DNA of 64,000 nt from assembly GCA_947650365.1 (NCBI GenBank), contig OX393550.1, forward strand, positions 120,654,374-120,718,373. Reading direction: 5' to 3'. Below, piece after piece: positions 27,270-64,000 of this stretch. The DNA comes from Chamaelirium japonicum (Eukaryota; Streptophyta; Magnoliopsida; Liliales; Melanthiaceae). The position numbers and the translations under genes were made by a program. Each line of letters opens with the position of its first letter. The stretch's first letter is position 1. Below the pieces are notes generated by a model. The model was not told the DNA's origin, made no database searches, and saw nothing but the letters and a program-made list of their open reading frames with translations.

Positions 27270-30200
27270 ATCCATTCTAATTTATTCGCACCATTCTAAT
27301 TCATTCGCATAATCTATTCTAATTCATTCGCACGATCCATTCTAATTCATTCGCACGAATTTATCCATTCTAATTCATTCGTACGATCCATTCTAATTCA
27401 TTTGTACAATCCATTCTAATATATTCATACGATCCATTCTAATTCCTTCGTACGATCCATTCTAATTCCTTCGTACGATCCATTCTTACTCATTCGTACG
27501 ATCCATTCTTACTTATTCGTATGATCCATTCTAATTCAATCGCACGAATGAATCAACTCTAATTCATTCGCACGATCCATTCTAATTCATTCGTACGATT
27601 CATTCGTATGATCCATTCTAATTCATTCGTACGAATGTATCCACTCTAGAATGGATCGTCTGTATGAATGAATTAGCTTGGATCGTATAAATGAATTAGA
27701 ATGGATCGTACGTATGAATTAGAATGGATACATTCATGAGAATGAATAAGAATGGATCGTACGAAGGAATTAGAATGGATCATACGAATGAAACTAGAAT
27801 GGATCGTACGAAGGAATTAGAATGGATCGTACGAAGGAATTAGAATGGATCGTACGAATGAATTAGAATGGATCGTATGAATGAATTAGAATGGATACAT
27901 TCGTGCGAATGAATTAGAATGGAACGTACGAATGAGTAAGAATGGTTCATACGAATGAAATAGAATGGATTGTACGAATGAATTAGAATGGATTATACGA
28001 ATGAATTAGAATGGATCTTATGAATGAATTAGAACGGATCGTGTGAAAGAATTAGAATGGATTGTATGAATGAATTAGAATGGATCGTATAAATGAATTA
28101 GAGTGGATCGTGTTTTTTCGTGCTAATGAATTAGAATGGATCGTACGAATGAATTAGAATGGATACATTCGTGCGAAAGAATTAGAATGGATCGTATGAA
28201 TGAATTAGATTGGATCCTATGAATGAATTAGAATGGATGGTGCGAAGGAATTAGAATGGATACATTCGTGCGAATGAATTAGAATGGATCGTGTGAATGA
28301 ATTAGAATGGATCGAATTAGAATGGATACATTCGTTCGAATGAATTAGAATGGATCATACGATTGAGTAAGAATGGATCGTACGAATGAAATAGAATAGA
28401 TCGTACGGAATGGATCGTACGAAGGAATTAGAATGGATCGTACAAAGGAATTAGAATGGATCGTACGTATGAATTAGAATGGATACATTCGTGCGAATGA
28501 ATTAGAATTGATTGTACGTAAGAATTTGTACTTATGAATGAATTAGAATGGATCGAATTAGAATGGATCGTACGAAGGAATTAGAATGGATCGTGCGAAT
28601 GAATTAGAATGGATACATTCGTGCGAATGAATTAGAATGGATCGGATAAAGGAATTAGAATGGATGCGAATGAATTAGAATGGAATGGATCGTACTTATG
28701 AATTAGAATGGATCGTACGAATGAATTAGAATAGATCGTACGAATGAATTAGAATAGATTGTGCGAATGAATTAGAATGGATCGTATGAATGAATTAGAT
28801 TACGATCCATTCTATTTCATTCGTATGATCCATTCCAATTCTTACGAATGAATTAGAATGGATCGTACGAATGTATTCGTGCGTGTGAAACAATTAGAAT
28901 GGATTGTGCGAATGAGTAAGAATGGATCGTACGAAGGAATTAGAATGGATCATACGAATGAATTAGAATGGATCGTATGAATGAATTAGAATGGATCATG
29001 CGAATGAATTAGAATGGATCGTATGAATGAATTAGAATAGATTGTGCGAATGAATTAGAATGGATCGTGCGAATGAATTAGAATGGATCGTATGAATGAA
29101 TTAGAATGGATCGTACTAATGAATTAGAATGGATCGTATGAATGAATTAGAATGGATACATACAAATGAATTAGAATGGATCGTATGAATGAATTAGATT
29201 GGATCGTATGAATGAATTAGAATGGATCGTGCAAATAAATTAGAATGGATCGTATGAATGAGTTAGAATGGATCATATGAATGAATTAGAATGAATTAGA
29301 ATGGATCGTATGAATAAATTAGAATAGATTGTGCGAAACGTACGAATGAATTAGAATAGATTGTGCGAATGAATTAGAATGAATCGTACGAATGAATTAG
29401 AATGGTTAAATTCGTGCGAATGAATTAGAATGGATTGTATGAATGAATTAGAATGTATCGTACGAATGAATTAGAATGGATCGTACGAATGAATTAGAAT
29501 GGATACATTCGTGCGAATGAATTAGAATGGATCATACGAATGAGTAAGAATGGATCGTACGAATGAAATAGAATGGATTGTACGAATGAATTAGAATGGA
29601 TTCATTCGTGCGAATGAATTAGAATGGATCGTACGAATGAAATAGAATGGATCGTACGTATGAATTAGAATGGATCGTACGAATATATCCACTCTAATTT
29701 ATTCATACGAAGCTAATTCATTCGTACGATCCATTCTAATTCATTCGCATGATCCATTCTAATTCATTCATACGATCAATTCTAATTCATTCGTACGATC
29801 CATTCTAATTCATTCGTACGATCCATTCTAATTCATTCGCACAATCAATTCTAATTCATTCGTACGATCCATTGTAATTCATTCGCACGATCCATTCTAT
29901 TTCATTCGTACGATCCATTCTATTTCATTCATATGATCCATTCTAATTCCTTCGTACGATCCATTCTAATTCCTTCGTACGGTCCATTCTAATTCCTTCG
30001 TAAGATCCATTCTAATTCATTCACACAATCCATTCTAATTCTTTTGCACGAATGTATCCATTCTAATTCATTCGTACGATCCATTCTAATTCATTCATAC
30101 GATCCATTCTTATTCATTCCCATGAATGTATCCATTCTAATCCATACGTACGATCCATTCTAATTCATTTATACGATCTAATCTAATTCATTCATACAAT

Positions 30201-33904: not shown

Positions 33905-36900
33905 TCCATTCTAATTTATTAGCACCATTCTAATTCATTCGCATAATCTATTCCAATTCATTCGCACGATCCATTCTAATTCATTCATACGATCCATTCT
34001 AATTCATTCGCACGAATTTATCCATTCTAATTCATTCGTACAATCCATTCTAATTCCTTCGTACGATCCATTCTAATTCCTTCGTACGATCCATTCTAAT
34101 TCCTTCGTACGATCCATTCTTACTCATTCGTACGATCCATTCTTACTCATTCGTATGATCCATTCTAATTCAATCGCACGAATGAATCAACTCTAATTCA
34201 TTCGCACGATCCATTCTAATTCATTCGTACGATTCATTCGTATGATCCATTCTAATTCATTCGTACGAATGTATCCACTCTAGAATGGATCGTCTGTATG
34301 AATGAATTAGCTTGGATCGTATAAATGAATTAGAATGGATCGTACGTATGAATTAGAATGGATACATTCATGAGAATGAATAAGAATGGATCGTACGAAG
34401 GAATTAGAATGGATCATACGAATGAAACTAGAATGGATCGTACGAAGGAATTAGAATGGATCGTACGAAGGAATTCGAATGGATCGTACGAATGAATTAG
34501 AATGGATCGTATGAATGAATAAGAATGGATACATTCGTGCGAATGAATTAGAATGGAACGTACGAATGAGTAAGAATGGTTCGTACGAATGAAATAGAAT
34601 GGATTGTACGAATGAATTAGAATGGATTATACGAATGAATTAGAATGGATCTTATGAATGAATTAGAACGGATCGTGTGAAAGAATTAGAATGGATTGTA
34701 TGAATGAATTAGAATGGATCGTATGAATGAATTAGAGTGGATCGTGTTTTTTCGTGCTAATGAATTAGAATGGATCGTACGAATGAATTAGAATGGATAC
34801 ATTCGTGCGAAAGAATTAGAATGGATCGTATGAATGAATTAGATTGGATCCTTTGAATGAATTAGAATGGATGGTGCGAAGGAATTAGAATGGATACATT
34901 CGTGCGAATGAATTAGAATGGATCGTGTGAATGAATTAGAATGGATCGAATTAGAATGGATACATTCGTTCGAATGAATTAGAATGGATCATACGATTGA
35001 GTAAGAATGGATCGTACGAATGAAATAGAATAGATCGTACGGAATGGATCGTACGAAGGAATTAGAATGGATCGTACAAAGGAATTAGAATGGATCGTAC
35101 GTATGAATTAGAATGGATACATTCGTGCGAATGAATTAGAATTGATCGTACGTAAGAATTTGTACTTATGAATGAATTAGAATGGATCGAATTAGAATGG
35201 ATCGTACGAAGGAATTAGAATGGATCGTGCGAATGAATTAGAATGGATACATTCGTGCGAATGAATTAGAATGGATCGGATAAAGGAATTAGAATGGATG
35301 CGAATGAATTAGAATGGAATGGATCGTACTTATGAATTAGAATGGATCGTACGAATGAATTAGAATAGATCGTACGAATGAATTAGAATAGATTGTGCGA
35401 ATGAATTAGAATGGATCGTATGAATGAATTAGATTACGATCCATTCTATTTCATTCGTATGATCCATTCCAATTCCTATGAATGAATTAGAATGGATCGT
35501 ACGAATGTATTCGTGCGTGTGAAACAATTAGAATGGATTGTGCGAATGAGTAAGAATGGATCGTACGAAGGAATTAGAATGGATCATACGAATGAATTAG
35601 AATGGATCGTATGAATGAATTAGAATGGATCATGCGAATGAATTAGAATGGATCGTATGAATGAATTAGAATAGATTGTGCGAATGAATTAGAATGGATC
35701 ATGCGAATGAATTAGAATGGATCGTACGAATGAATTAGAATGGATCGTACGAATGAATTAGAATGGATCGTATGAATGAATTAGAATGGATACATACAAA
35801 TGAATTAGAATGGATCGTATGAATGAATTAGATTGGATCGTATGAATGAATTAGAATGGATCGTGCAAATAAATTAGAATGGATCGTATGAATGAGTTAG
35901 AATGGATCGTATGAATGAATTAGAATGAATTAGAATGGATCGTATGAATAAATTAGAATAGATTGTGCGAAACGTACGAATGAATTAGAATAGATTGTGC
36001 GAATGAATTAGAATGGATCGTACGAATGAATTAGAATGGTTAAATTCGTGCGAATGAATTAGAATGGATTGTATGAATGAATTAGAATGTATCGTACGAA
36101 TGAATTAGAATGGATCGTACGAATGAATTAGAATGGATACATTCGTGCGAATGAATTAGAATGGATCATACGAATGAGTAAGAATGGATCGTACGAATGA
36201 AATAGAATGGATTGTACGAATGAATTAGAATGGATTCATTCGTGCGAATGAATTAGAATGGATCGTACGAATGAAATAGAATGGATCGTACGTATGAATT
36301 AGAATGGATCGTACGAATGTATCCACTCTAATTCATTCATACGAAGCTAATTCATTCGTACGATCCATTCTAATTCATTCGCATGATCCATTCTAATTCA
36401 TTCATACGATCAATTCTAATTCATTCGTACGATCCATTCTAATTCATTCGTACGATCCATTCTAATTCATTCGCACAATCTATTCTAATTCATTCGTACA
36501 ATCCATTCTAATTCATTCGCACGATCCATTCTATTTCATTCGTACGATCCATTCTATTTCATTCATATGATCCATTCTAATTCCTTCGTACGATCCATTC
36601 TAATTCCTTCGTACGATCCATTCTAATTCCTTCGAAAGATCCATTCTAATTCATTCACACAATCCATTCTAATTCTTTTGCACGAATGTATCCATTCTAA
36701 TTCATTCGTACGATCCATTCTAATTCATTCATACGATCCATTCTTATTCATTCCCATGAATGTATCCATTCTAATTCATACGTACAATCCATTCTAATTC
36801 ATTTATACGATCTAATCTAATTCATTCATACAATCCTTTCTAATTCATTCGCACGAATTTATCCATTCTAATTCATTCATACGATCCATTCTAATTCATT

Positions 36901-46080: not shown

Positions 46081-47647
46081 TCTAATTCATTCGCACGATC
46101 CATTCTAATTCATTCATACGATCCATTCTAATTCATTCGTACGATCCATTCTAATCTATTCGCATGATCCATTCTAATTCACTAATATGATCCAAACTAA
46201 TTCATTCATACGATCCATTCTAATTCATTCATACAATCCATTCTATTTCATTCGTACGATCCATTCTTACACATTCGTAGGAATGAATTAGCATGGATCG
46301 TGCTAATGAATTAGAATGGAACGTACGAATGAATTAGAATGGATCGTAGAATGGATCGTATGAATGAATTAGATTGGATCGTATGAATGAATTAGAATGG
46401 ATCATACGAATGAATTAGAATGGATCGTATGAATGAATTAGAATGGATCGTGCGAATGAATTAGAATGGATCGTGCAAATGAATTAGAATGGATCGTGCG
46501 AATGACTTAGAATGGATCGTACGAATGAGTAAGAATGGATCGTACGAATGAAATAGAACGGATAGTACGAATGAATTAGATCGGATCGTGCGAATGAATT
46601 AGAATGGATCGTACGAATGAATTAGAATAGATTGTGCGAATGAATTAGAATGGATCGTACGAATGAATTAGAATGGATCGTAATAATGGATCGTACGAAT
46701 GAAATAGAATGGATCGTACGAATGAATTAGAATTCATTCATACGAATGAAATAGAATGGATCGTACCAAGGAATTAGAATGGATCGTACAAAGGAATTAG
46801 AATGGATCGTACGAATGAATTAGAATGGATACATTCATGCAAAAGAATTAGAATGGATTGTATGAATGAATTAGAATGGATCGAATGAATGAATTAGAAT
46901 GGATCGTGCGAATGAATTAGATCGGATCGTATGAATGAATTAGAATGTATCGTACAAATGAACTAGAATAGATCGTACAAAGGAATTAGAATGGATCGTA
47001 CGAAGGAATTAGAATGTATACATTCGTGCGAATGAATTTGAATGGATCGTATGAGTGAATTAGAATAGATCGTACGAATGAATTATAATGGATCGTGCGA
47101 ATGAATTAGAATGGATCGTGCGAATTAATTAGAATGGATCTGGATACATTCGTGCGAATGAATTAGAATGGATCGTACGAATGAAATAGAATGGATCATA
47201 TGAATGAATTAGAATGGATCGTGTGAATGAATTAGAATGGATCGTACGAAGGAATTAGAATGGATCGTATGAAGGAATTACAATGGATCGTACAAATGAA
47301 TTAGAATGGATACATTTGTGCAAAAAAATTAGACTGGATTGTATGAGTGAATTAGAATGGATCGTACGAATAAGTAAGAATGGATTGTATGAATGAATTA
47401 GAATGGATCGTGCGAATGAATTAGAATGGATCGTGCGAATGAATTAGAATGGATCTGGATACATTCGTGCGACTGAATTAGAATGGATCGTATGAATGAA
47501 TTAGAATGGATCGTATGAATGAATTAGAATGGATCGTGTGAAAGAATTAGAATGGATTGTATGAATGAATTAGAATGGATCGTGCTAATGAATTAAAATG
47601 GATCGTACGAATGAATTAGAATAGATTGTGTGAATGAATTAGAAAGG

Positions 47648-47680
47648 ATGCACTACAAGAAATAGGGTCTTTACCGACGG
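47648..47680 (+). repeat. Left terminal inverted repeat of the CACTA element with candidate target duplication
   Basis: ATG (47648-47650) is the possible target-site copy. The terminus CACTACAAGAAAT starts at 47651, and the first CCGACGG motif is at 47674-47680. The complementary terminus is not in the window, so the extent of the terminal repeat cannot be measured. Confidence 0.85.
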
Positions 47681-48295
47681 ACATTATTATCACCGTCGGT
47701 AATAATACACTGTTTACCGACGGTGACAATAATATTCGTCGGTATTATAACTTCAATTTTTTAAATTTTCTTTGCATATTTATACCGACGGTATACATAT
47801 TTACCGTCGGTAATATACTTTATACCGACGGCTACATATAAACCGTCGGCAAAATGTCATCGTCGTGATATTGTACCGACGGAAATTGTATTTCCGTCGG
47901 TATAACCAATGTTACCGACAGCCATAATATCTCCGTCGGCAATATACCGACGGTAATAAAATGTCCGTCGGTAAAATTGTCCCGACGAAACTCAGTGTAA
48001 AAACCGAGCCTCTGGAAAAAAATAGGAGGTTGAGTTTTGTCGTACTATTTACCAACGGACGTGAAAGTTCCGTCGGTATAACTAATTATACCGACGGAAT
48101 TTATATGTCCGTCGGCACTATACCGACGGTAATTAAGTTTCCGTCGGTAAAATGTTCCGACGGAACTCAGGGTGCCAAACCGAGCCTCTGGAAAAAATTG
48201 AGCTTGATGTTTCGTCGTGGAGTTTTACCGACGGATAGTTATTTACCGTCGGTAATAATATTAGTTGTACCGACGGAATCTAAACTTTCCGTCGG
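47674..48295. repeat. Subterminal motif array, alternating CCGACGG and CCGTCGG
   Basis: I count 11 perfect CCGACGG and 11 perfect CCGTCGG heptamers, plus several one-mismatch copies such as CCGACAG near 47915 and CCAACGG near 48051. The two orientations alternate through the array, usually 15-25 bp apart, so neighbouring copies can pair as hairpins. In En/Spm elements, subterminal repeats in both orientations are binding sites for the element's TnpA protein. By analogy these may be bound by the product of the gene at 56679-58379; that link is inference. Confidence 0.85.
47944..48295 (+). repeat. 176-bp direct duplication inside the subterminal array
   Basis: Segment 47944-48119 repeats at 48120-48295. 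Both start ATACCGACGGTAAT and share AAACCGAGCCTCTGGAAAAA and several motif pairs, with moderate divergence between them. The duplication roughly doubled the number of motif sites in the right half of the array. Confidence 0.8.
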
Positions 48296-48369
48296 TAAAA
48301 ACCCTGTTATAAAATAAAACAGTCGAGATCCCCTTTGATCTCTTCTGTTTCGATCTCTCCCGGCCGCCC

Positions 48370-48625
48370 CTCTCTCTCTCTCTCTCTCTCAATCTCCCCC
48401 CCTCCCCGGCCACCCTCCCCCCCCTCCCCGGCCACCCTCCCCCCTCCCCGGCCTCCCTCCCCCCCTCTGGTCGGCCGGCCACCCCTCCCCTCTCGTGCGC
48501 GCCGGCGAGCTCCGCCTCCTCCTCCTCCTCCTGTGGACTCCGGTGAGCTCCTCTCGTTCGCGCCGGTGAGCTCCTCCTCCTCCTCCTCCTCCTGTGGACT
48601 CCGGTGAGCTCCTCCTCCTCCTCCT
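48370..48625 (+). repeat. CT microsatellite and GC-rich minisatellite block
   Basis: A (CT)n run spans 48370-48390. It is followed by three copies of a roughly 20-bp CTCCCCGGCCACC unit (about 48401-48465), then a 61-bp direct duplication (48491-48551 and 48552-48612) with CCT triplet runs. Several overlapping open frames on both strands are rich in Pro, Ser or Arg/Gly, as expected of simple repeats, and I call no gene. The position between the subterminal array and the transposase gene suggests 5' leader or promoter sequence, but I see no defined TATA element or start. Confidence 0.8.
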
Positions 48626-48895
48626 CCCTCTCTCCCATAGTGCAGATTGTGGTGACTTGGTTTTGTGTGATTGTGGTGACAAAGTAAACTAAGCAAGTAA
48701 AGTAGGCAAAATTAATATGGTAATGGGGTGCGTGTTTGAAATTTAGATTTGGAGAGCTAGGGTGTTCGAATCCACCTCTAGGCTATCAGACTCGCTAAAT
48801 TAAATAATAAGATTCTTTGGGTAAACGAGTAGCACTCGGGGATTTTTTTGACAATGGTTTCAAACAAGGATGCCAGTTAAGACGATCGCCCTACT
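48626..48895. other. Noncoding spacer in the left part of the CACTA element
   Basis: AT-moderate sequence with no supported gene or repeat. A sequence resembling a tRNA B box (GTTCGAATCC, around 48764-48773) is present, but I find no matching A box or cloverleaf. Confidence 0.6.
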
Positions 48896-49257
48896 AAAAA
48901 TAGTCGCCTTGATCGAATGTGGGCGTTTTAACTGAATGTGGGTGTCTTCACTAAATGTGAGCGACCTTGCTAAATTTCGATGCCCTCGCCGAATGTGGGT
49001 GTCTTCACCGAATTTGGGCGCGTTCACAGAATGTGGATGCCCCGTCGAACGTGGGCGTTCTCGCTGAATGTTCACGCCGACAAGCATGTGCATTACTATT
49101 GCTATCTCCGCACAAGAAATATTGTCATCACCCACTAAATATTGTTCTCTTCCTCGAAATATTATCGCTGCTCTCTAATTGTTTTGTTGCCACCTATGAA
49201 ATATTATCATTTTTCTCAAAATATTGTCTTCGCCCATAAAATCTTTTGCTTTAACTC
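48896..49257 (+). repeat. Degenerate 19-21-bp tandem repeats
   Basis: From about 48896 to 49084 roughly ten copies of a 19-bp unit occur in register, for example GAATGTGGGTGTCTTCACC at 48991-49009, with boundaries at 48915, 48934, 48953, 48972, 48991, 49010, 49029, 49047 and 49066. After a short break, seven longer copies of 19-21 bp (GAAATATTGTCATCACCCAC type) run from 49116 to 49257 and seem to be a drifted form of the same unit. Open frames across this block follow the repeat and are not supported as genes. Confidence 0.75.
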
Positions 49258-49993
49258 CCCATCTAATCCGAACCATACGTCGGGATCAAATGGACGGCCC
49301 GGATCATAGGTAACTATAGGTAACAACAATAATTGTTTTTAGGGTCATATATTAACCCATGGAATATAACCGACGATGCATGTAATCTAGATAGGAACAA
49401 TTATAGTAAAAACAAAATAATTCATATTTATTAACTAAAACGATTCATTATTTATTAAGCTAAAACCCTAAAAAGACATGAAAAATATAATTTACTAGGC
49501 TAGGGTTTTATCAAAACCCTAGAGGAGGTCTTTAGCCGAGCATGGCGACGATCACTACTTCGATCCTCCGTTTTGCGACGGCTTTCACGCTCTAAAAAAA
49601 ATATGTTTGATGGTCACAAAACGTCTACTTGTATGGTAGGGATCATTCTAGGGTTTCCCCAAAAGAAGCCTCATCACAAAATGAAAGTATTTGGCTATAC
49701 GTTGTTGATTCGGGGTTCTAGGTCTGATAAATCGGACTTCGGGCACAATCGATCGACCATTCATTTTTCACTGTTACAGCCATGTGGTGCTAATTTGTTT
49801 TTGTCATAACTTTTATCTCGGTTATCGGAATTAGGCGTTCTTATGCTCGTTTCTAAGCTCTCGACAAAATCAGATGGCCTGTAGAAGTTTTGGTTCGGTG
49901 TTCCATACCCGGGAACCGAAACTGAAATTGTGCGGAGTCTTATAACATTGTTTGAAATTATATGTCAGGTGTTGTATAGCCAGATAGACGAAG
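49258..49993 (+). promoter_or_regulatory. Upstream region of the TNP2-type transposase gene
   Basis: Noncoding by my reading. It contains AAAACCCTAA near 49462, a perfect palindromic pair CTAGGGTTTT/AAAACCCTAG (49500-49522) and CTAGGGTTT near 49651. These match the plant telo-box (AAACCCTA), a motif found in some plant promoters. A 10-bp inverted repeat, GTTTTGGTTC (49887-49896) with GAACCGAAAC (49913-49922), lies about 70 bp before the start codon. Its role as promoter or leader is inferred from position only; no clear TATA box or splice pair was chosen. Confidence 0.4.
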
Positions 49994-52900
49994 ATGTCTT
50001 TGATCGATAAGAGTTGGATGCGTAATTCGAATCGCATGAGCCAAGAGTACAGAGAAGGAGTCAGGAAATTTCTGGATTTTGCATTTGAGCGTCTTGCACC
50101 GCTTGATGGAAAAATTGTGTGTCCCTGTATAGACTGCGGAAGGGTGATTAGGAAGGTTCGAGAGGAATGTGAGGTTGATCTGGTAATGCGTGGCATTGAC
50201 ATTACCTATACCCGTTGGTTCTCGCACGGTGAGGAGCTAGATGCAGTCCCCATGGCAGCTCACGGTGAAACTTCAAACACAGTGATCGCTGATGATAATA
50301 TTAATACAGACGATGACGATGACATGCAGGGTATGATACATGATTTGCAAGGTGGAATAGGCACGGAAACACCGTCAGGTGATCAGCCCAATATCGAAGC
50401 GGACAAGTTCTACAGATTGCTTAAAGATGCCGAACAACCTCTATACCCGGGGTGTGAGAAGTTTTCAAAACTCTCTTTCACTGTAAAGCTTCTTCATTTG
50501 AAGTGCCTCAATGGTTGGAGTAATAAGTCATTTAATATGTTGGTAGAGTTGCTGAAAGAGGCTTTTCCTATGGGTGAGACAGTACCGAAATCATTCTACG
50601 AGGCGAAGAAGACAATTAAAGATCTCGGTCTGGGTTATGAGAAAATTGATGCATGCGTGAACGATTGTATGTTGTACCGGAAAGAGTACGAACATGCGCG
50701 GTCATGCCATATATGCGGAGCAACGAGATATAAAGAGACGGATGCCGAGTCTAGTACCAGTCGAAGGAAGAAAAATATATCTGCAAAGGTTCTCCTATAC
50801 TTCCCGCTCAGGGACAGGCTTCAGAGGTTGTTTATGTTATCGAAGACTGCTGAGCACATGAGGTGGCATGCACGAGAACGTACAGATGACGGGATTATGA
50901 GACATCCGGCCGACTCTCTGACGTGGAAAGATTTTGATCATACATATCCTGAATTCGCATGTGAAGTTCGCAACGTCAGGTTAGGGCTTGCTAGCGATGG
51001 CTTCAATCCCTTTGGGAATATGAGTGTGTCGTACAGCATTTGGCCAGTTGTCCTAGTTCCATACAATTTGCCTCCCTGGATGTGCTTAAAAAAGCCATAC
51101 ACAATGCTCTCCTTGCTCATTCCCGGACCCAGGTCGCCTGGTAATGATATTGACGTTTATTTGCAGCCGTTGATTGAGGAGTTGAACGAGTTATGGGAAG
51201 TTGGGGCCGATACGTATGATGCCTCGTTGCGCCAGAATTTTCGGATGCATGCGGCACTTCTATGGACCATCAACGATTTTCCTGCATATGCCAACTTATC
51301 CGGGTGGAGTACTAAAGGAAAATTGGCGTGCCCTACATGCAATAAGGAGACAGATTCATTACGATTGAAGAACGGAGGCAAGTTCTGTTATATGGGCCAT
51401 CGAAGATTCCTTGTTGACGGCCATAAGTGGAGGCAGAACAAAAGAGCTTTCAACGGCAAGAAGGAACTTGCAAAGGCCCCGGAGCAGCTTTCGGGGGTAG
51501 AAGTCTTGTGCGAATTGGATCAGCTTGATGCCGTGGCACTTGGAAAAGGTAAAAAGAAGAGAACGCATGAAGATTCTACGCGTGAGCATAACTGGAAGAA
51601 GAAGAGTATTTTCTTTAAACTACCGTACTGGAGCAGCCTACTTTTGCGGCATAACTTGGATGTCATGCATATCGAGAAAAATGTGTGTGACAACATTATA
51701 GGAACACTGATGAATCTCGACGGTAAGACGAAGGATAATCTTAAATCTCGTCTCGATCTTAAGGAGTTGGGCATCCGAAAATCACTTCATCCCCAAGAGA
51801 TTGGGGATAAGTATGTGTTGCCAGTTGCATGCTACACCATGAGCTCACAGCAAAAGGCAGCCTTATGTGCATTCCTATGGTCTGTGAAAACGCCAGACGG
51901 TTATTCTTCGAATATCGCACGATGCGTGCAAGAGAACGGCCGGAAGTTGTCTGGATTAAAGAGCCACGATTGTCATGTTCTTATGCAGCGATTGTTATCT
52001 CTTGCTATACGTGGGAATTTAACCGAAGAGGTGTCCGGTCCGTTAATTGAGCTCAGCACTTTTTTCAGACAGTTGTGCTCGAAGGTACTTAGAGTGGACC
52101 AACTTGAACAGATGGAGAGGGATATTGCGCTCACATTGTGCAAGTTAGAGATGATATTTCCACCTTCCTTCTTTGATGTCATGGTGCATTTGACCGTTCA
52201 TTTGGCAAATGAGGCCAAACTCGGCGGCCCAATTCATTACCGGTGGATGTATTTTATCGAGAGGTAATCGTCTCGTCTCATTCGCACAATGTATTTGATC
52301 GTTCTTGATATATTCATCCAAATATTTTTTTCTCAAATTAGGTACTTGCGAACATTGAAATCATATGTTCGTAATAAAAGTCGTCCGGAGGGATCAATTG
52401 TTGAAGGATACCTAGCAGAAGAATGTCTAACATTCTGCTCAAGATACCTACATGGTATAGACACGCGATTCAATCAACTTGAGCGGAACTATGACGATGG
52501 TCCAATAGACTTCGATGGGGGTCTGTCTATATTTGCCGAAATGGGTAGACCTGTAGGAGGAGGCAAAACCCATCGATTGTCTGTAGATGAGATTCAACAG
52601 GCACATATGTATGTGTTGCGCCAATGTGATGAATTGTGGCCATTCATTGAGTAAGCATTTTACGATCATTTACTCATTCTTTCAGTCCATTCATTAAGTA
52701 TATGTGTTAATTATAATCTAATTCATAACCGGTAAAACAGGAAGCATAAAGCCATCATTAATAATCGGGGTACTCGAAATGCTCCCCAAATTCATGATCG
52801 TGAATTCCCATCGTGGTTCGAGAAACACGTAAGTATTCACATCATTACTGAATTTCATTGACATCCATTACCGAACAATAATTATGTGTTCATATCATGA

Positions 52901-53595
52901 ATGTCGTGTGGTTATTATAGGCACAGGAGCTGCACGACAACCATGATCCGCTGATGAATGAGGATCTCTGGCGCTTATCTTGTAGTCCTTTGCAAGACGC
53001 AATATCGTACGATGGTTATATCTTGAACGGTTATAGATTTCGGACAAAAGATAGTGAAAAATCACGAAGAACCCAAAATAGTGGGGTTGTCGTCAACGGT
53101 GAGCAAGAAGAACTAGAAAATATCGACTTCTATGGCGTCCTCAACGAGATTCTCGAGATTAAATTCCTTGGCCAAAATCGGATCGTATTATTCAAATGCG
53201 ATTGGTATGATGTTAATAATCGCGGGACTGGTTATAATGTCGACAAATACGGTTTTATCAGCATCAACACTGCCAAGAGATTGAATACCCAATATGAAGA
53301 TCCATTCATTCTTGCCTCTCAAGCGTAATAGATATTTTATGCACCGGATAATACCTCTCCAGGTTGGCAAATTATAGTCAGGTCACCACCCAGAGATTTT
53401 TACGACATGGGAGACAAGGATGCGGGGGTCGTCGATGATGATTTGGATGCATACCAGAATGATGAGATAATCATTGTCGACGCAGTGCACGACGAAAATG
53501 AAGATGTCGACAATATAAACTGGACAGCGAAAGCAGATCAAATAATAGAAGAGGGAAGCGATGAGAGTGACAGAGATGAGACAGAAAATAACTAG
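49994..53595 (+). CDS. TNP2-type CACTA transposase (Transposase_21), four exons, two in-frame stops near the C-terminus
   Basis: This is the enzyme that would cut and paste the element. Proposed exons are 49994-52263, 52342-52650, 52741-52828 and 52921-53595; each intron has GT/AG ends and all join in frame. Order along the protein: a Transposase-associated domain (about residues 5-80) with CPCIDC at 43-48 and the W-F-SHGEE end; a CHIC motif at 238-241; the Transposase_21 core with SDGFNPFG (Asp335), IPGPRSPGNDID (376-387), INDFPAY (Asp428), CPTC (446-449) and HNLDVMHIEKN (553-563); DUF4218 from about 690, with YLRTLKSYVRN and GYLAEECLTF; and DUF4216 with FYGVLNEI and FKCDWYDV. Assigning Asp335, Asp428 and Glu561 as catalytic is my inference. 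The ATG at 49994 gives the usual family N-terminus. Codons 1025-1026 are TAA TAG; the same frame then stays open for 87 more codons (FYAPD, then an acidic tail). The gene is therefore truncated to 1024 aa unless read through. Confidence 0.9.
53326..53331 (+). other. Tandem nonsense codons TAA TAG in the transposase
   Basis: They follow PFILASQA, where family members usually continue with Glu-Gln and then FYAPD. Here IFYAPD follows in the same frame directly after the two stops, so no indel is involved. Simple G-to-T and C-to-T changes in a GAA CAG pair would explain them; the ancestral codons are inferred. No GT donor nearby offers an obvious splice around the stops. Confidence 0.85.
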
Positions 53596-53599
53596 ACCG

Positions 53600-53756
53600 T
53601 ATGTAAATCAAATTGTTTCATATTTAAATCAAATTGTTTCATATATAAATCATATTGTTTCATATGTATATCATATTGTTTCATATGTAAATCATACCGT
53701 TTCACCGATTCATATGTAAATCATACCGTTTCATATGTAAATCATACCGTTTCACC
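53600..53756 (+). repeat. 21-bp tandem repeats downstream of the transposase gene
   Basis: Seven copies of a 21-bp unit of the type ATGTAAATCATATTGTTTCA begin just after the transposase stop codon. The last copies are interrupted by CACCGATT fragments that also belong to the adjacent 181-bp unit. The same 21-bp unit reappears on the other side of the 181-bp array at 56513-56680. Confidence 0.85.
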
Positions 53757-56512
53757 GATTTACGATCTGACCGATTCACCGATTTAGAGTCTAAGAGTTG
53801 GAAAATCATAAGTTAGCGTGTTTCGGATATGAAATAGGTTTCGATTCGATCGGATCGTCATCGGATCGGCATCCGATAATTCGAAGTTGGATTTATTCCG
53901 GATTTCGGACTTGCGAGCGGGTTCTAATTGGATATTTGACCAATTTACGCTCTGATTCACCGATTTATAGTCTAAGTGTTGGAAAATCATAAGTTAGCGT
54001 GTTTCGGATATGAAATAGGTTTGGATTCGATCCGATCGTCATCGGATCGGCATCCGGTAATTCGAACTTGGAATTATTCCGTATTTCGGACTTGCGAGCG
54101 GGTTCTAATTGGATATTTGACCAATTTACGCTCCGATTCACCGATTTAGAGTCTAAGTGTTGGAAAATCATAAGTTAGCGTGTTTCGGATATAAAATAGG
54201 TTTGGATTCGATCCGATCGTCATCGGATCGGCATCCGATAATTCGAAGTTGGATTTATTACGTATTTCGGACTTGCGAGCGGGTTCTAATTGGATATTTG
54301 ACCAATTTACGCTCCGATTCACCGATTTAGAGTCTAAGTGTTGGAAAATCATAAGTTAGCGTGTTTCGGATATGAAATAGGTTTGGATTCGATCCGATCG
54401 TCATCGGATCGGCATCCGGTAATTCGAACTTGGAATTATTCCGTATTTCGGACTTGCGAGCGGGTTCTAATTGGATATTTGACCAATTTACGCTCCGATT
54501 CACCGATTTAGAGTCTAAGTGTTGGAAAATCATAAGTTAGCGTGTTTCGGATATAAAATAGGTTTGGATTCGATCCGATCGTCATCGGATCGACATCTGA
54601 TAATTCGAACTTGTATTTATTACGTATTTCGGACTTGCGAGCGGGTTCTAATTGGATATTTGACCAATTTACGCTCCGATTCACCGATTTAGAGTCTAAG
54701 TGTTGGAAAATCATAAGTTAGCGTGTTTCGGATATGAAATAGGTTTGGATTCGATCGGATCGTCATCGGATCGGCATCCGGTAATTCGAACTTGGAATTA
54801 TTCCGTATTTCGGACTTGCGAGCGGGTTCTAATTGGATATTTGACCAATTTACGCTCCGATTCACCGATTTAGAGTCTAAGTGTTGGAAAATCATAAGTT
54901 AGCGTGTTTCGGATATAAAATAGGTTTGGATTCGATCCGATCGTCATCGGATCGGCATCCGATAATTCGAACTTGGATTTATTCCGTATTTCGGACTTGC
55001 GAGCGGGTTCTAATTGGATATTTGACCAATTTACGCTCCGATTCACCGATTTAGAGTCTAAGTGTTGGAAAATCATAAGTTAGCGTGTTTCGGATATGAA
55101 ATAGGTTTGGATTCGATCGGATCGTCATCGGCTCGGCATCCGGTAATTCGAAGTTGGAATTATTCCGTATTTCGGACTTGCGAGCGGGTTCTAATTGGAT
55201 ATTTGACCAATTTACGCTCCGATTCACCGATTTAGAGTCTAAGGGTTGGAAAATCATAAGTTAGCGTGTTTCGGATATGAAATAGGTTTGGATTCGATCC
55301 GATCGTCATCGGATCGGCATCCGGTAATTCGAACTTGGAATTATTCCGTATTTCGGACTTGCGAGCGGGTTCTAATTGGATATTTGACCAATTTACGCTC
55401 CGATTCACCGATTTAGAGTCTAAGTGTTGGAAAATCATAAGTTAGCGTGTTTCGAATATGAAATAGGTTTGGATTCGATCCGATCATCATCGGATCGGCA
55501 TCCGGTAATTCGAACTTGGAATTATTCCGTATTTCGGACTTGCGAGCGGGTTCTAATTGGATATTTGACCAATTTACGCTCCGATTCACCGATTTAGAGT
55601 CTAAGTGTTGGAAAATCATAAGTTAGCGTGTTTCGGATATGAAATAGGTTTGGATTCGATCCGATCGTCATCGGATCGGCATTCGGTAATTCGAAGTTGG
55701 AATTATTCCGTATTTCGGACTTGCGAGCGGGTTCTAATTGGATATTTGACCAATTTACGCTCCGATTCACCGATTTAGAGTCTAAGTGTTGGAAAATCAT
55801 AAGTTAGCGTGTTTCGGATATGAAATAGGTTTGGATTCGATCCGATCATCATCGGATCGTCATCCGGTAATTCGAACTTGGAATTATTCCGTATTTCGGA
55901 ATTGCGAGCGGGTTCTAATTGGATATTTGACCAATTTACGCTCCGATTCACCGATTTAGAGTCTAAGTGTAGGAAAATCATAAGTTAGCGTGTTTCGGAT
56001 ATAAAATAGGTTTGGATTCGATCCGATCGTCATCGGATCGGTATCCGATAATTCGAACTTGGATTTATTCCGTATTTCGGACTTGCGAGCGGGTTCTAAT
56101 TGGATATTTGACCAATTTACGCTCCGATTCACCGATTTAGAGTCTAAGTGTTGGAAAATCATAAGTTAGCGTGTTTCGGATATGAAATAGGTTTGGATTC
56201 GATCCGATCGTCATCGGATCGGCATCCGGTAATTCGAAGTTGGAATTATTCCGTATTTCGGACTTGCGAGCGGGTTCTAATTGGATATTTGACCAATTTA
56301 CGCTCCGATTCACCGATTTAGAGTCTAAGTGTTGGAAAATCATAAGTTAGCGTGTTTCGAATATAAAATAGGTTTGGATTCGATCCGATCGTCATTGGAT
56401 CGGCATCCGATAATTCGAACTTGGAATTATATTCCGTATTTCGGACTTGCGAGCGGGTTCTAATTAGATATTTGACCACTTTACGATCCGATTAACCGAT
56501 TTAGAGTCTAAC
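53757..56512 (-). repeat. 181-bp satellite array 1 (about 15 units), minus orientation
   Basis: Head-to-tail copies of a 181-bp unit, marked by GTTGGAAAATCATAAGTTAG every 181 bp. Each unit holds an inverted pair CGATCCGA/TCGGATCG with a 6-nt loop. Two unit types alternate in the first eight copies (GAAATAGG with CCGGTAATTCG against AAAATAGG with CCGATAATTCG), giving a 362-bp higher-order period; later copies are mostly one type. The last unit is degenerate. A 68-codon open frame recurs in every unit on the minus strand, but 181 is not a multiple of three and the frames only echo the repeat. The array lies between the two CACTA genes. Confidence 0.95.
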
Positions 56513-56680
56513 TGTTTCATATTGTTTCATATTGTTTCATATTGCGAGCGGGTTCATATTGTTTTATATTGTTTCATATGTAAATCATACTGTTTCATAT
56601 GTAAATCAAACTGTTTCATATTGTTTCATATGTAAATCTTAAATCTTACTGTTTCATATGTAAATTAAATTGTTTCAGAT
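56513..56680 (+). repeat. 21-bp repeats between array 1 and the second gene
   Basis: Copies and half-copies of the TGTAAATCATACTGTTTCAT unit seen at 53600-53756, including runs of the short half TTTCATATTG. A stray fragment of the 181-bp unit (TTGCGAGCGGGTTC) is embedded near 56542. The repeats lead straight into the start codon of the next gene, so they probably form part of its promoter or leader. Confidence 0.85.
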
Positions 56681-58379
56681 GGCATCACGGTCATATGTTC
56701 GTAGAGGCAGAGGCAGAGGCAGGGGTAGGGTAGCTCAGAGCGCTCCGGCTGCCACCCCAGGGTCCGAGGCTGAGCCGTCCGGATCTGGTAGTGCTGTTCC
56801 TCTCTCCACACCAGCTCCTGCTGTGGTCGCAGCCTCCGGAGCTTCGAGCAGTGCTCAGCACTCGGCTGCAGCGTCTACGCCCATAGGTAATGTTTAGATC
56901 TAAAGTTTTATACATGTTGTAAATACTTCTTCAGTACTGATGTATATTTTATTTGCAGGGTCGACCAGGTACGTAGGCGACCGGGGCGTGACGACGGCCC
57001 GGCGCTTGTCGGCCTTACGCGAGCCGCTGTCCCTACAGTGGAGCGGCCATACCTTTGTGGGCGAGCACGCTTCTGACGCCGCCACGTGGGTCGGCATGAT
57101 AGTACGGGAGGAGAGGAATGCCCCGATTGTGGGGTTAAGGGGGTGGAAGAACATTGATGCATCCTATAAGGAGAGGATGTATCAGCAGTTTTTGGTACGT
57201 TAGTTTCATTAAAGCATTTTAGAATAATATCGTACTTCTTTATAATTTGATTTGATAAAATGACTTGTTTCTAAATTGATTTTACAGGAGAAATTTAAAT
57301 GGGAGAACATGGAAACCGACACCCATCGGGAGGACTTGTTGAAGACGATGGGTGAGCGGTACAGGGATTACTGTTACGAGCTCTACCAGCTCTACGGTTA
57401 CTTGGTTGGCCAGCCGGCTGAGGAGGTACAGGCTGCGGCCGGGACGAGAGACGCGCCACCGCTGCACATTCTACAGTTTTTGGTCGCTCACTGGGCCACC
57501 CCTAGCTTTCAGGTATAATTATAATTTTGTTGATTCGTACTTGTTTTAATGTTATACTAAAAATTTGTATTGATGTTTCAAAATTTAATTGATTCACACA
57601 GAGGAAATCTGCTATAGGCAAGCAGAATAGAAGTGCCTCGACGACACCTGCTCCAGTGAAGGGGAGGACCTCCATGCCCCAGCTTGCCCAGCAGCTGGTA
57701 AATGATACAAACATTGTTATTATTTAAAGCTCTATACATGTTATATTAACTCGTCTATTTATTTTATATGTCCAACAGACACAGTCCTTGGGCCACGAGC
57801 CTAATAGGATTGACCTTTTTGAGGCCTCTAGGAGGCGGCGTATCGATGGGGCATTTCTGGACGACAGGGTTGCCTCGCAAGTGGTAAGTAATTAAATTAC
57901 TGTTAATATATTCTTATACATATGCCATAAAATATCATTGAATATCATTGGTTGTTTTTATATAGGAGAGGATGCGACTTCTGGTGACCCCGTCGGGCGA
58001 GGCCGGCTCCTCCTCCAGCTCAGTATCTGTCGACTCAGCGATGGATACTGTGCTGAGACCTGCCACGCACGGCCGTGTCCTCTGTACGGGCCTTGGAGTC
58101 ACGCCCTCCTCCTACTTTGGACGAGAGGGTATGCGCTCGAGGGCACGGGACACCCAGACCGGTGCTATCACTCAGCTGCAGTCTGCGCTAGACGCGGAGC
58201 GAGAGCAGAGGCAGGCCCTCGAGCAGAGGATGGAGGCGGAGCGAGAGCAGAGGCAAGCCCTCGAGCAGAGGGTTGAGGCGGAGAAGAAGGCCTTCGATGA
58301 GGAAAGAGAAGCTCGCAGGGAACTGGAGCGTAAATTTAATGAATTCATAAGCCGGTCTAGCGGTGGCTCATCCTCATGA
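56679..58379 (+). CDS. CACTA accessory protein, TnpA/Transposase_24-like, six exons, intact
   Basis: Proposed exons are 56679-56886, 56959-57194, 57288-57512, 57602-57697, 57779-57883 and 57966-58379; all introns have GT/AG ends and join in one frame, giving 427 aa without a stop. The N-terminus is basic (RRGRGRGRGR, residues 8-17), then Ala/Ser/Pro-rich. Residues about 70-220 (WSGHTFVGEHA, WKNIDASYKERMYQQFLEKF, then MGERYRDYCYELY) resemble the plant transposase family Transposase_24, which accompanies TNP2 genes in CACTA elements. The C-terminus has a 42-bp in-frame duplication (58191-58232, 58233-58274) encoding AEREQRQALEQR twice and continues as a likely coiled coil. In En/Spm the TnpA protein binds subterminal repeats; that role here is inferred. 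The start ATG at 56679 comes right after the 21-bp repeats. Exon GC content is clearly higher than in the arrays and in the transposase gene. Family assignment is from memory of motifs. Confidence 0.72.
58191..58274 (+). repeat. 42-bp in-frame duplication in the coiled-coil region
   Basis: Two nearly identical 42-bp units encode a 14-residue period (EREQRQALEQR core). Fourteen residues equal two heptads, so the duplication would lengthen the coiled coil without changing register. Confidence 0.85.
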
Positions 58380-58455
58380 TCAGGTACTTACTAATCTTTA
58401 TAATATTAGCAAAAAATATGAATCTTACTAATTTGAGTTTAGATCATATTATCAC
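58380..58455 (+). other. Short AT-rich spacer after the second gene
   Basis: It joins the stop codon at 58377-58379 to the first degenerate 181-bp unit. I see no polyadenylation signal that stands out and no repeat. Confidence 0.5.
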
Positions 58456-61400
58456 ACTTATGATTTTCCAACACTTAGACTATAAATCAGTAAATCGAAT
58501 CATAAATGGTCTCTCTTTCTCTCATGGTAATGATGTAGCCTCTGTTTTTCTTTTAAATACGGAATAATTCCAACTTCGAATTACCGGATGCCGATCCGAT
58601 GACGATCGGATCGAATCCAAACCTTTTTCATATCCGAAACACGCTAACTTATGATTTTCCAACACTTAGACTCTAAATCGGTGAATCGGAGCGTAAATTG
58701 GTCAAATATCCAATTAGAACCCGCTCACAAGTCCGAAATACAGAATAAATCCAAGTTCGAATTATCGGATGCCGATCCGATGACGATCGGATCGAATCCA
58801 AACCTATTTCATATCCAAAACACGCTAACTTATGATTTTCCAACACTTAGACTCTAAATCGGTGAATCGGAGCGTAAATTGGTCAAATATCCAATTAGAA
58901 CCTGCTCGCAAGTCCGAAATACGGAATAATTCCAACTTCGAATTACCGGATGCCGATCCGATGACGATCGGATCGAATCCAAACCTATTTCATATCCGAA
59001 ACACGCTAACTTATGATTTTCCAACACTTAGACTCTAAATCGGTGAATCGGAGCGTAAATTGGTCAAATATCCAATTAGAACCCGCTCGCAAGTCCGAAA
59101 TATGGAATAAATCCAAGTTCGAATTATCGGATGCCGATCCGATGACGATCGGATCGAATCCAAACCTATTTCATATCCGAAACACGCTAACTTATGATTT
59201 TCCAACACTTAGACTCTAAATCGGTGAATCGGAGCGTAAATTGGTCAAATATCCAATTAGAACCCGCTCGCAAGTCCGAAATACGGAATAATTCCAAGTT
59301 CGAATTACCGGATGCCAAGCCGATGACGATCCGATCGAATCAAAACCTATTTCATATCCGAAACACGCTAACTTATGATTTTCCAACACTTAGACTCTAA
59401 ATCGGTGAATCGGAGCGTAAATTGGTCAAATATCCAATTAGAACCCGCTCGCAAGTCCGAAATACGGAATAATTCCAAGTTCGAATTACCGGATGCCGAT
59501 CCGATGACGATCGGATCGAATCCAAACCTATTTCATATCCGAAACACGCTAACTTATGATTTTCCAACACTTAGACTCTAAATCGGTGAATCGGAGCGTA
59601 AATTGGTCAAATATCCAATTAGAACCCGCTCGCAAGTCCGAAATACGGAATAAATCCAACTTCGAATTATCGGATGCCGAGCCGATGACGATCCGATCGA
59701 ATCCAAACCTATTTTATATCCGAAACACGCTAACTTATGATTTTCCAACACTTAGACTCTAAATCGGTGAATCGGAGCATAAATTGGTCAAATATCCAAT
59801 TAGAACCCGCTCGCAAGTCCGAAATACGGAATAATTCCAAGTTCGAATTATCGGATGCCGAGCCGATGACGATCGAATCGAATCCAAACCTATTTTATAT
59901 CCGAAACACGCTAACTTATGATTTTCCAACACTTAGACTCTAAATCGGTGAATCGGAGCGTAAATTGGTCAAATATCCAATTAGAACCCGCTCGCAAGTC
60001 CGAAATACGGAATAATTCCAAGTTCGAATTACCGGATGCCGATCCGATGACGATCGGATCGAATCCAAACCTATTTCATATCCGAAACACGCTAAGTTAT
60101 GATTTTCCAACACTTAGACTCTAAATCGGTGAATCGGAGCGTAAATTGGTCAAATATCCAATTAGAACCCGCTCGCAAGTCTAAAATACGGAATAAATCC
60201 AACTTCGAATTATCGGATGCCGATCCGATGACGATCAGATCGAATCCAAACCTATTTCATATCCGAAACACGGTAACTTATAATTTTCCAACACTTAGAC
60301 TCTAAATCGGTGAATCGGAGCGTAAATTGGTCAAATATCCAATTAGAACTCGCTCGCAAGTCCGAAATTCGGAATAATTCCAAGTTCGAATTATCGAATG
60401 CCGAGCCGATGACGATCGGATCGAATCCAAACCTATTTCATATCCGAAACACGCTAACTTATGATTTTCCAACACTTAGACTCTAAATCGGTGAATCGGA
60501 GCGTAAATTGGTCAAATATCCAATTAGAACCCGCTCGCAAGTCCGAAATACGGAATAATTCTAAGTTCGAATTACCGGATGCCGATCCGATGACGATCGG
60601 ATCGAATCCAAACCTATTTCATATCCGAAACACGCTAACTTATGATTTTCCAACACTTAGACTCTAAATCGGTGAATCGGAGTGTAAATTGGTCAAATAT
60701 CCAATTAGAACCCGCTCGCAAGTCCGAAATACGGAATAAATCCAACTTCGAATTATCGGATGCCGATCCGATGACGATCGGATCGAATCCAAACCTATTT
60801 CATATCCGAAACACGCTAACTTATGATTTTCCAACACTTAGACTCTAAATCGGTGAATCGGAGCGTAAATTGGTCAAATATCCAATTAGAACCCGCTCGC
60901 AAGTCCGAAATTCGGAATAATTCCAAGTTCGAATTATCGAATGTCGAGCCGATGACGATCGGATCGAATCCAAACCTATTTCATATCCGAAGCACGCTAA
61001 CTTATGATTTTCCAACACTTAGACTCTAAATCGGTGAATCGGAGCGTAAATTGGTCAAATATCCAATTAGAACCCGCTCGCAAGTCCGAAATACGGAATA
61101 ATTCCAAGTTCGAATTATCGAATGCCGAGCCGATGACGATCGGATCGAATCCAAACCTATTTCATATCCGAAACACGCTAACTTATGATTTTCCAACACT
61201 TAGACTCTAAATCGGTGAATCGGAGCGTAAATTGGTCAAATATCCAATTAGAACCCGCTCGCAAGTCCGAAATACGGAATAATTCCAAGTTCGAATTACC
61301 GGATGCCGAGCCGATGACGATCCGATCGAATCCAAACCTATTTCATATCCGAAACACGCTAACTTATGATTTTCCAACACTTAGACTCTAAATCGGTGAA

Positions 61401-62254
61401 TCGGAGCGTAAATTGGTCAAATATCCAATTAGAACCCGCTCGCAAGTCCGAAATACGGAATAATTCCAAGTTCGAATTATCGGATGCCGATCCGATGACG
61501 ATCGGATCGAATCCAAACCTATTTCATATCCGAAACACGCTAACTTATGATTTTCCAACACTTAGACTGTAAATCGGTGAATCGGAGCGTAAATTGGTCA
61601 AATATCCAATTAGAACCCGCTCGCAAGTCCGAAATTCGGAATAATTCCAACTTCGAATTATCGAATGCCGATCCGATGACGATCCGATCGAATCCAAACC
61701 TAGCTATTTCATATCCGAAACACGCTAAGTTATGATTTTTCAACACTTAGACTCTAAATCGGTGAATCGGAGCGTAAATTGGTCAAATATCCAATTAGAA
61801 CCCGCTCGCAAGTCCGAAATACGGAATAATTCCAAGTTTGAATTATCGGATGCCGAGCCGATGACGATCCGATCGAATCCAAACCTATTTTATATCCGAA
61901 ACACGCTAACTTATGATTTTCCAACACTTAGACTCTAAATCGGTGAATCGGAGCGTAAATTGGTCAAATATCCAATTAGAACCCGCTCGCAAGTCCGAAA
62001 TACGGAATAATTCCAACTTCGAATTACCGGATGCCGATCCGATGACGATCGGATCGAATCCAAACCTATTTCATATCCGAAACACGCTAACTTATGATTT
62101 TCCAACACTTAGACTCTAAATCGGTGAATCGGAGCGTAAATTGGTCAAATATCCAATTAGAACCCGCTCGCAAGTCCGAAATTCGGAATAATTCCAAGTT
62201 CGAATTATCGAATGCCGATCCGATGACGATCCGATCAAATCCAAACCTAGCTAT
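58456..62254 (+). repeat. 181-bp satellite array 2 (about 21 units), plus orientation
   Basis: The same 181-bp unit as array 1 but reversed, so the pair forms an inverted repeat around the second gene. The first unit is divergent: about 58509-58552 is replaced by unrelated sequence containing TCTCTCTTTCTCTC. Three-unit (543-bp) higher-order repeats are visible, for example GAAATTCGG at 60364 and 60907 with matching GAATGCCGAGCC/GAATGTCGAGCC variants. Two late units share a 4-bp insertion, CCTAGCTAT, at about 61698 and 62246. The last unit stops at 62254, where an LTR-like sequence begins. Confidence 0.95.
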
Positions 62255-64000
62255 TGTTGGAAACAAATCCATGGTAGAGGCCCGCAGCGGAAGCAAAGTG
62301 AAGGTCCGAGGACCGTGAGCGGTGTGCGTTACATATCAAAATTTTCATCGAAACAATTTACATATGCGTGTATGAAACTTAGCATCGCAACTACGCGAAC
62401 CCCTAACGACGATCTAACGCAAACGAACAATCTAGCATGAATGCATGTTCTAATTATGTTAGATCTACTTGTTAGAGATCATACTTGCGTGCGGAATCTT
62501 TCACCGCGACAAATTTCTTCTTTGTCGATGGAGACGGGCAACGGATCTGCTCGACATAGCTTCAGTGCGACAGCCATAACGTTTTGCTCCGAACTCCGAT
62601 TGGGCTGAAATTTGGACTGAAGGTAGCCAACTTCAAGACGGAACTTTTGCAACAAGTTTCACGTCGTTTGGACTTTTGTAGCTCCCGGAATCACAGAAAC
62701 AACGCTGATTTTCTGTGCAGATTCTGGACAGCAAAAGGTTGCGGGAGACGCCTTCTAGTTCACCCGATCTCACACGATGCACGGCACCTCGTCGATGGAT
62801 CTCTGAGTGCCTCCATACGACGAGTCTTCTCCTTCTACGAAACACCACGCGAGGAAGACGAGTCGCCATCCAATGGCGCAAGCGAGGGAGAGAGAGACGA
62901 GGGAGGAGATGCGAAGAGAGAAGAGGGGGCGGCTAGGGTTTCCCCATACCATGGCCGGCCCTAGGGCTTGCATGGCTCTATTAAATTTTTTTTGCCCCCT
63001 CTCTCTCCTTCTCATATATATAGCCGGCCTATCCATATGGATAAGGACAGTATGATAAGGATGATTGATTCAAACCTTATCCCTATATATCTCTTCTTTA
63101 TCTCTATCCTTTCCTTGTTTTCGAAAACGGTCAAAACCAGCCCGTTTTCTGCGCCTCATAACCGGCCCCTTCATCGGAGGCAACAACCTCCCGAAACTAA
63201 TGGGGCCGGCCTTGACCAGTCTCTCAACACTTAGGGCTGGCCCCCTTAGTGCATAGTGGCGCATGGTATGACCAAAACGCCCTTATGCCACTAGTTGGCC
63301 GTTCCTCGTGTACGAGACTTTGCAAGGCACACAAAAGTGAAGTGCACCAGTGATTTCACTATTCTCTGAGGTTCCCGTAGGGTGCCCCTAGTGAAGTCAA
63401 CTAGTCAACTCGCAACATGTCCCGGTGCATCGCACCCATGTGGCAAAGTCCACTTATGGCAAGGAATTGCTACATGCGTCTCTGCACTAACCTAGGGTTT
63501 CCCCTTAGTGCACACACGTAGCTACGCATCTACCGAGCACTAGTGCGAAGCACTCACGGAGCGTATGCTTGGACTTCTTGCTTCCTCTAACTACGTTCTG
63601 TGTTTCGATGAGATGGTATAAGAACCATACATAATGTCGATAAGGTGGAACCTTCAGGGACCAGGGTTCATGGCTTCCAACTCAGACTCGATCGACACAC
63701 TACCCGAGTGTACCATCGATCCTCTGAGTCCGAGTTAACCTGCATAGCCACCCAGAGTGCGATGCAGGCTGCACTCCAATCTCCCCGGACTTACTATGTT
63801 CTCCCACATACCCCTGCTCTCCGCTTAGTATGGTAAACTCGTTGTCCCTCCACTGGTGCCATGACGCAACTCGAGCGGTGGAGAATACCGTCAGACTCGA
63901 GTGCTCATATGACTCGTTTCCTTCCAGGTTGACTACGTACATCGTACCTCCAATAACTCTACCGAGTAACCGGATCCGTCATCAGTCCAACTGATGACCA
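62255..64000. mobile_element. Putative long LTR or LTR-derived repeat inserted in the satellite, right end beyond the window
   Basis: The 181-bp unit breaks off after GCTAT (62250-62254), a candidate 5-bp target duplication, and TGTTGGAAAC follows. TG at the edge and a TGTTGG start are usual for copia-type LTRs. No primer-binding site such as TGGTATCAGAGC, no polypurine tract and no gag-pol coding sequence occurs before 64000. Orientation and family therefore stay open: it could be a 5' LTR, or the outer edge of a reversed element. Short open frames at 62584-63256 overlap on both strands and show no recognisable domain, so I call no gene. The nature of the sequence is inferred mainly from the clean boundary. 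Confidence 0.5.
63013..63024 (+). promoter_or_regulatory. Possible TATA box inside the LTR-like sequence
   Basis: CATATATATAG occurs here, about 760 bp from the proposed LTR edge, after a long T run and a CT-rich stretch. It is the best TATA-like site in the region for plus-strand transcription; there is no other evidence. Confidence 0.25.

Follow-up and report, generated by a model that had tools for sequence, protein, structure and literature searches.

Mirrored arrays of one 181-bp satellite unit flank the second gene of a plant CACTA transposon and form a single pool of units

We found that a two-gene CACTA element, with Transposase_21 in its first gene and Transposase_24 in its second, holds two inverted arrays of the same 181-bp unit, one on either side of the second gene, and that the units of both arrays belong to one undifferentiated pool. 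The explanation we prefer, with a probability of roughly 0.5, is that such an element carries an inverted satellite pair whose arms are kept alike by exchange across the loop between them. The following features were located in the window (the whole stretch of 64,000 nucleotides that was analysed):

12-47649: 23-bp satellite (ATTCTAATTCATTCGTACGATCC), filling 47.6 kb from the start of the window (TRF)
47651..47665, + strand: CACTA left terminus (CACTACAAGAAATAG), adjoining the 23-bp satellite
47673..48296, unstranded: subterminal repeat block, 18 copies of ACCGACGG/CCGTCGGT in both orientations
49994..53595, + strand: TnpD-like transposase gene with Transpos_assoc, Transposase_21, DUF4218 and DUF4216
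53600..53754, + strand: 21-bp minisatellite spacer before the left arm (TRF)
53750..56516, + strand: left arm, array of the 181-bp unit, 15.2 copies (TRF from 53771)
56517..56678, + strand: second spacer of the 21-bp type, from the left arm to the loop gene, with a stray 20-bp piece of the unit inside
56679..58379, + strand: loop gene, 427 aa, Transposase_24, six exons with GT-AG introns and an open frame
58455..58510, - strand: diverged relic of the unit on the gene side of the right arm
58555..62254, - strand: right arm, inverted array of the 181-bp unit, 20.4 copies by TRF, cut mid-unit
62255..64000, unstranded: foreign sequence starting TGTTGGAAAC, which interrupts the right array and leaves the window

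The 23-bp satellite ends at 47651, where CACTACAAGAAATAGGG starts, and the 5' terminal CACTA typical of the CACTA (En/Spm) superfamily is present at this position as CACTACAAGAAA. The 8-mer of this terminus is not significant by itself (0.45 expected), its significance lying in its setting beside the subterminal block. Specifically, ACCGACGG or its complement occurs 18 times in the window against 1.00 expected, a count reached in 0 of 100 shuffles, and all 18 copies are confined to 47673-48296, where they make up the short direct and inverted subterminal repeats of this superfamily. Judged by its sequence, 47651 together with this block is the left end of a CACTA element. The initial annotation had identified the element as CACTA and had placed everything inside it; the identity is borne out by the left end, the subterminal block and a tnp2-type transposase gene, whereas the enclosure is not confirmed, since the right terminus of the element lies beyond the window. 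No known RNA family reached its gathering threshold in 47600-64000. In the 23-bp satellite outside the element, a three-state segmentation, in which short segments may be noise, gave about 51 flips of orientation in 47.6 kb. A few of the 21 switches that were checked fall on longer perfect palindromes, with half-lengths of 16 (at 43501), 13 (15798), 7 (27630 and 34264) and 6 (6619), and of at most 4 at the other 16. Within the same satellite, 27562-29369 and 34196-36003, about 6.63 kb apart, have nearly the same TRF rows and orientation pattern and are probably a duplicated block.

Both genes of the element lie on the + strand. The first shows the tnp2-type transposase of the CACTA (En/Spm) superfamily (Transposase_21, PF02992, E-value 1.9e-102), accompanied by Transpos_assoc (6.4e-20), by DUF4218 in its two exons (2e-30 and 6.3e-20) and by DUF4216 (1.1e-16). 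Two adjacent in-frame stops at 53326-53331 fall in its last exon, inside the DUF4216 part, and the frame reopens for 87 codons past them. The match to DUF4216 reaches position 55 of 73 and breaks off at these in-frame stops (where the query piece also ended), so the protein predicted from this gene is probably shortened. The loop gene was assembled from exons at 56679-56886, 56959-57194, 57288-57512, 57602-57697, 57779-57883 and 57966-58379, with borders picked by eye, and its product matches Transposase_24 (PF03004) at residues 211-337 with an E-value of 1.7e-16. In its last exon, a 42-bp tandem duplication (58194-58283) extends a charged, coiled-coil-like tail; a search of solved structures with 285 of the 427 residues as query gave a best E-value of 0.42. 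Taken together, the domains of the two genes (TAD, Transposase_21, DUF4218 and DUF4216, with Transposase_24 in ORF2) match the Type 3 architecture of CACTA elements as set out in the available portion of PMC8978399, which gives Type 3 18 database hits against 671 for Type 1 and in section 7 prints its DUF4218 as DUF4181 at one place. By its domain, the loop gene is the Transposase_24 gene that this portion places in ORF2 of Type 3. To call it an accessory gene, as the initial annotation did, is therefore misleading, since Transposase_24 in ORF2 of the described Type 3 makes it a recurrent part of such elements.

The two arms have the same regular anatomy. TRF delimits the left array at 53771-56516 (period 181, 15.2 copies, 96% matches) and the right array, with the unit in reverse complement, at 58555-62249 (20.4 copies, 96%), while a partial unit prolongs the left-arm homology outward to about 53750. 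These arrays and the open six-exon gene between them bear out the earlier description of two arrays facing opposite ways around an intact gene. In both arms the units are oriented towards the loop gene, and their spacing is exactly 181 bp in 14 of 14 left intervals and in 18 of 19 right intervals, the remaining one being 185 bp. The longest exact inverted repeat between the arms measures 294 bp (54261-54554 against 59354-59647). The left arm lies between the element's two genes and the right arm after ORF2, as in a CACTA element with an internal satellite. Long repeats are prone to assembly error, but the two arms join the gene through unlike sequences, and the partial units at these junctions have diverged differently, which would be unexpected from a mirrored mis-join, and we give almost no credence to a false inverted orientation. 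The position 62254, which had been read as the end of the array, is not a natural one: the right array is broken off mid-unit at about this point, where the TGTTGGAAAC sequence starts. From its terminal signature we take this sequence to be, probably, an LTR inserted in the array; none of the primer-binding and polypurine words tried was found. The cut unit at the right end and right-arm unit R03 carry an identical 4-bp insertion, so that the array at the cut resembles ordinary array and not an edge. Given this mid-unit cut, the right array probably continues past the window.

The evidence for a single pool comes from the variation among units. Units of the left arm diverge from one another by 2.8% and those of the right arm by 3.1%, and comparison across the arms gives 3.0% (permutation p 0.15; 14 left and 19 right full units, with L15 and R20 dropped). 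When the units were compared column by column (15 left and 19 right; L15 kept, R20 and the two partial end units dropped), we found no fixed difference between the arms and 8 columns polymorphic for the same bases in both, 4 of them transversions, and net divergence between the arms was 0.0006 (bootstrap -0.0011 to 0.0030). Two pairs of units are identical across the arms (L04 and R15, L14 and R01). Together, these observations make the two arms one undifferentiated pool of units, and the four shared transversions are poorly explained by recurrent mutation, so the arms share the ancestry of these variants. In addition, for some pairs of shared variants, every one of the four possible combinations turns up within each arm, a pattern pointing to recombination among units on a scale finer than the single unit. 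A shared order of units was not detected between the arms, either in the same direction (p 0.53) or in the opposite one (p 0.33), and on this ground we rejected a single simple inverted duplication of the whole array with its order kept. A weak two-unit period inside the left arm (best-segment test, p 0.0165) was not seen in the right arm by the same test (p 0.41).

We propose that the arms would have been founded as an inverted pair, either from a captured satellite or from internal sequence amplified in place, and would since have stayed alike because they pair with each other and exchange sequence across the loop, through conversion or crossover, with unequal exchange acting besides inside each arm. 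We also simulated copying with a crude model, run six times per setting at arbitrary rates and with a mutation input that differed between low and high exchange; net divergence as a ratio of between-arm divergence was 0.435, 0.029, 0.081 and -0.001 when 5%, 10%, 20% and 50% of copying events crossed the arms. The model approached the observed ratio of 0.02 only once about a tenth or more of the events did so, a result that is indicative only, as units in the model differ from one another at about 3 positions, against about 5 in the actual arrays. Against exchange between the arms we count the private variation, namely, among the 15 and 19 units, 14 columns that are variable in the left arm alone, 19 that are so in the right arm alone and 3 where the two arms vary but for different bases.

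The main rival is a recent joint origin from a variable satellite pool, in which part of a host 181-bp satellite that already held the variants was taken into the element, either as an inverted pair or twice in opposed orientation, no exchange being needed. If very recent, such an origin from one polymorphic pool would give the same undifferentiated arms. A comparable case is the CACTA element of Chenopodium quinoa that contains a 171-bp array (32.5 copies, 5.5 kb, near the 3' end of the element), read as captured in the accessible part of PMC8978399. Orientation switches are also common in the adjacent 23-bp satellite, all of them outside the CACTA element, and their frequency makes the mirrored 181-bp layout less surprising. 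Two independent later insertions, which had been named as an alternative, would need one common variant pool because the arms share polymorphisms. The lack of a detected unit order speaks against joint seeding, yet seeding from different parts of a source array would give none either.

A further point against recent joint seeding is that divergence in both arms is higher at the inner edge than in the interior. Compared with the 34 full units, in which 117 of 6152 positions differ from the consensus, the core of the relic unit differs at 6 of 55 aligned positions (p 7e-4; 8 of 67 with its gapped tail, p 5e-5) and the inner edge of the left arm at 4 of 50 (p 0.016; 4 of 55 with its tail, p 0.02), these comparisons being based on 50-67 positions. 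The outer-left partial unit is barely more diverged (1 of 21 aligned positions, 2 gap columns), and the two inner edges agree with each other at 31 of 37 positions, about as expected from independently worn edges. At face value, the time that the arms have spent beside the gene exceeds the time for which their interiors have been similar, and this speaks for exchange rather than for a recent joint birth; alternatively, the edges may reflect a diverged source unit instead of age. On balance, recent joint seeding appears to us somewhat improbable.

The origin of the 181-bp unit is a separate matter, and amplification in place would be compatible with later exchange. According to this possibility, a spacer of the element itself gave rise to the unit, which was then amplified to the left and to the right of ORF2. 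In the second spacer, 56542-56561 matches the unit at 18 of 20 positions, and the spacer as a whole scores 30 against a largest value of 24 in 100 shuffles; the other spacer barely exceeds its 100 shuffles (23 against 22). The shared pieces could equally be debris shed from the array, and neither the 5' region nor the transposase gene has an above-chance match to the unit. We therefore hold this origin to be doubtful.

Under our preferred explanation of exchange across the loop, the mirrored layout is most likely a by-product of satellite turnover and not a selected device. A selected role in cis, with the arrays serving as multiplied sites or promoters that read towards the gene and regulate ORF2 or bind its product, would agree with the placement of the arms where the promoter and the 3' end of ORF2 would be. 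It would also agree with the 5 left-arm and 3 right-arm copies of TATAAAA, which we take to be a TATA-box word, all of them reading towards the gene. However, this form is a minority variant (8 of 34 units, column 60). Likewise, the unit contains a dyad and its consensus folds better than shuffles (z -3.3, with 1 of 200 as good), but one or more of its 8 pairs are disrupted in 14 of 34 units, none of them with a compensatory change, and a conserved hairpin was rejected as a candidate. The earlier suggestion that the units are multiplied binding sites fails for the subterminal motif, because ACCGACGG has 0 matches in the arms at 0 or 1 mismatch, and arms made of copies of this motif were likewise rejected. 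Overall, we consider a selected device in cis very unlikely. The observed/expected ratio of CpG is 2.1 in each arm against 1.0 in the transposase gene; undepleted CpG in the arms does not suggest long methylation decay, although the unit sequence sets this ratio.

As deduced from the unit divergence and the order comparisons, the arms would be able to form a duplex some 2.7 kb long with about 97% identity, and a cruciform or double-stranded RNA, both raised in the initial annotation, are possible given this anatomy. A read-through transcript from the transposase side that carried both arms would fold into a duplex of about 2.7 kb, which could feed small-RNA silencing of the element family. We think it quite unlikely that the arms recombine by crossover as well as conversion such that the 1.9-kb loop, and ORF2 with it, is inverted time and again. 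If this were true, the element would exist as two isomers, with ORF2 either in line with the transposase gene or facing it, and satellite DNA would have built a reversible switch of a plant transposon's second gene; in the facing isomer, transcription coming from the transposase side would yield RNA antisense to ORF2. More generally, satellite arrays borne by mobile elements are one route of satellite spread, and it is plausible, by analogy with the precedent described in the accessible part of PMC8978399, that a genomic satellite has its source in this element or is carried by it. With a mirrored pair on the two sides of its second gene, an element could make its arms uniform, turn its loop around or produce long double-stranded RNA, and each of these outcomes bears on CACTA silencing and on satellite seeding.

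Among the open-licence PMC papers listed in literature searches, as judged by their titles and the starts of their abstracts, none showed a mirrored satellite pair around a CACTA ORF2. Searches for relatives in three collections, none of them of plants and thus of little weight, gave no match in the plasmid collection (near mode), 0 matches in viral_contigs to a 24-base piece of the 181-bp unit, and 1 pattern hit but no relative in genome_contigs for the first transposase exon. The closest described systems, compared here as far as the available portions of the respective papers describe them, each share a part of the present arrangement. Like the Jozin-type CACTA of Chenopodium quinoa, our element contains an internal array of nucleosome-sized units, but there one array per element is described, and no inversion is mentioned in the portion available, whereas here two opposed arrays flank ORF2 (PMC8978399). 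The Tpn1 family of Ipomoea nil likewise consists of CACTA elements with tandem repeats in non-coding parts; its repeats (122 bp and 104 bp) are subterminal and occur at both ends, in contrast to the one inverted unit found here, whose left arm lies between the two genes (PMC5105172). Satellite arrays are also linked to a CACTA element in Chenopodium, where monomers of about 40 bp derive from the tnp2 domain, unlike our 181-bp unit without a match to the transposase gene; the same paper cites the Afa and TM-2 repeats from CACTA deletion derivatives in Triticeae (PMC7320549). In the foldback transposon Tetris of Drosophila virilis, an apparently non-autonomous element, tandem repeats of about 220 bp occupy the terminal inverted repeats and are linked to an emerging satellite (PMC4079207); here, by contrast, the left arm starts about 6.1 kb inside the left terminus, which sets the element apart from foldback transposons, and flanks a gene. 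Finally, the macro-dyad symmetries of Tribolium madens resemble our arms in that kilobase-scale subarrays of one satellite face each other, but these lie in multi-megabase satellite regions and neither inside a transposon nor around a gene (PMC13081366). Thus, within the parts of this literature that were available, satellite arrays within CACTA elements, mirrored satellites outside transposons and terminal-repeat arrays in foldback elements are already known, and what stands out as apparently new is the mirrored 181-bp pair around ORF2, with halves that have not drifted apart.
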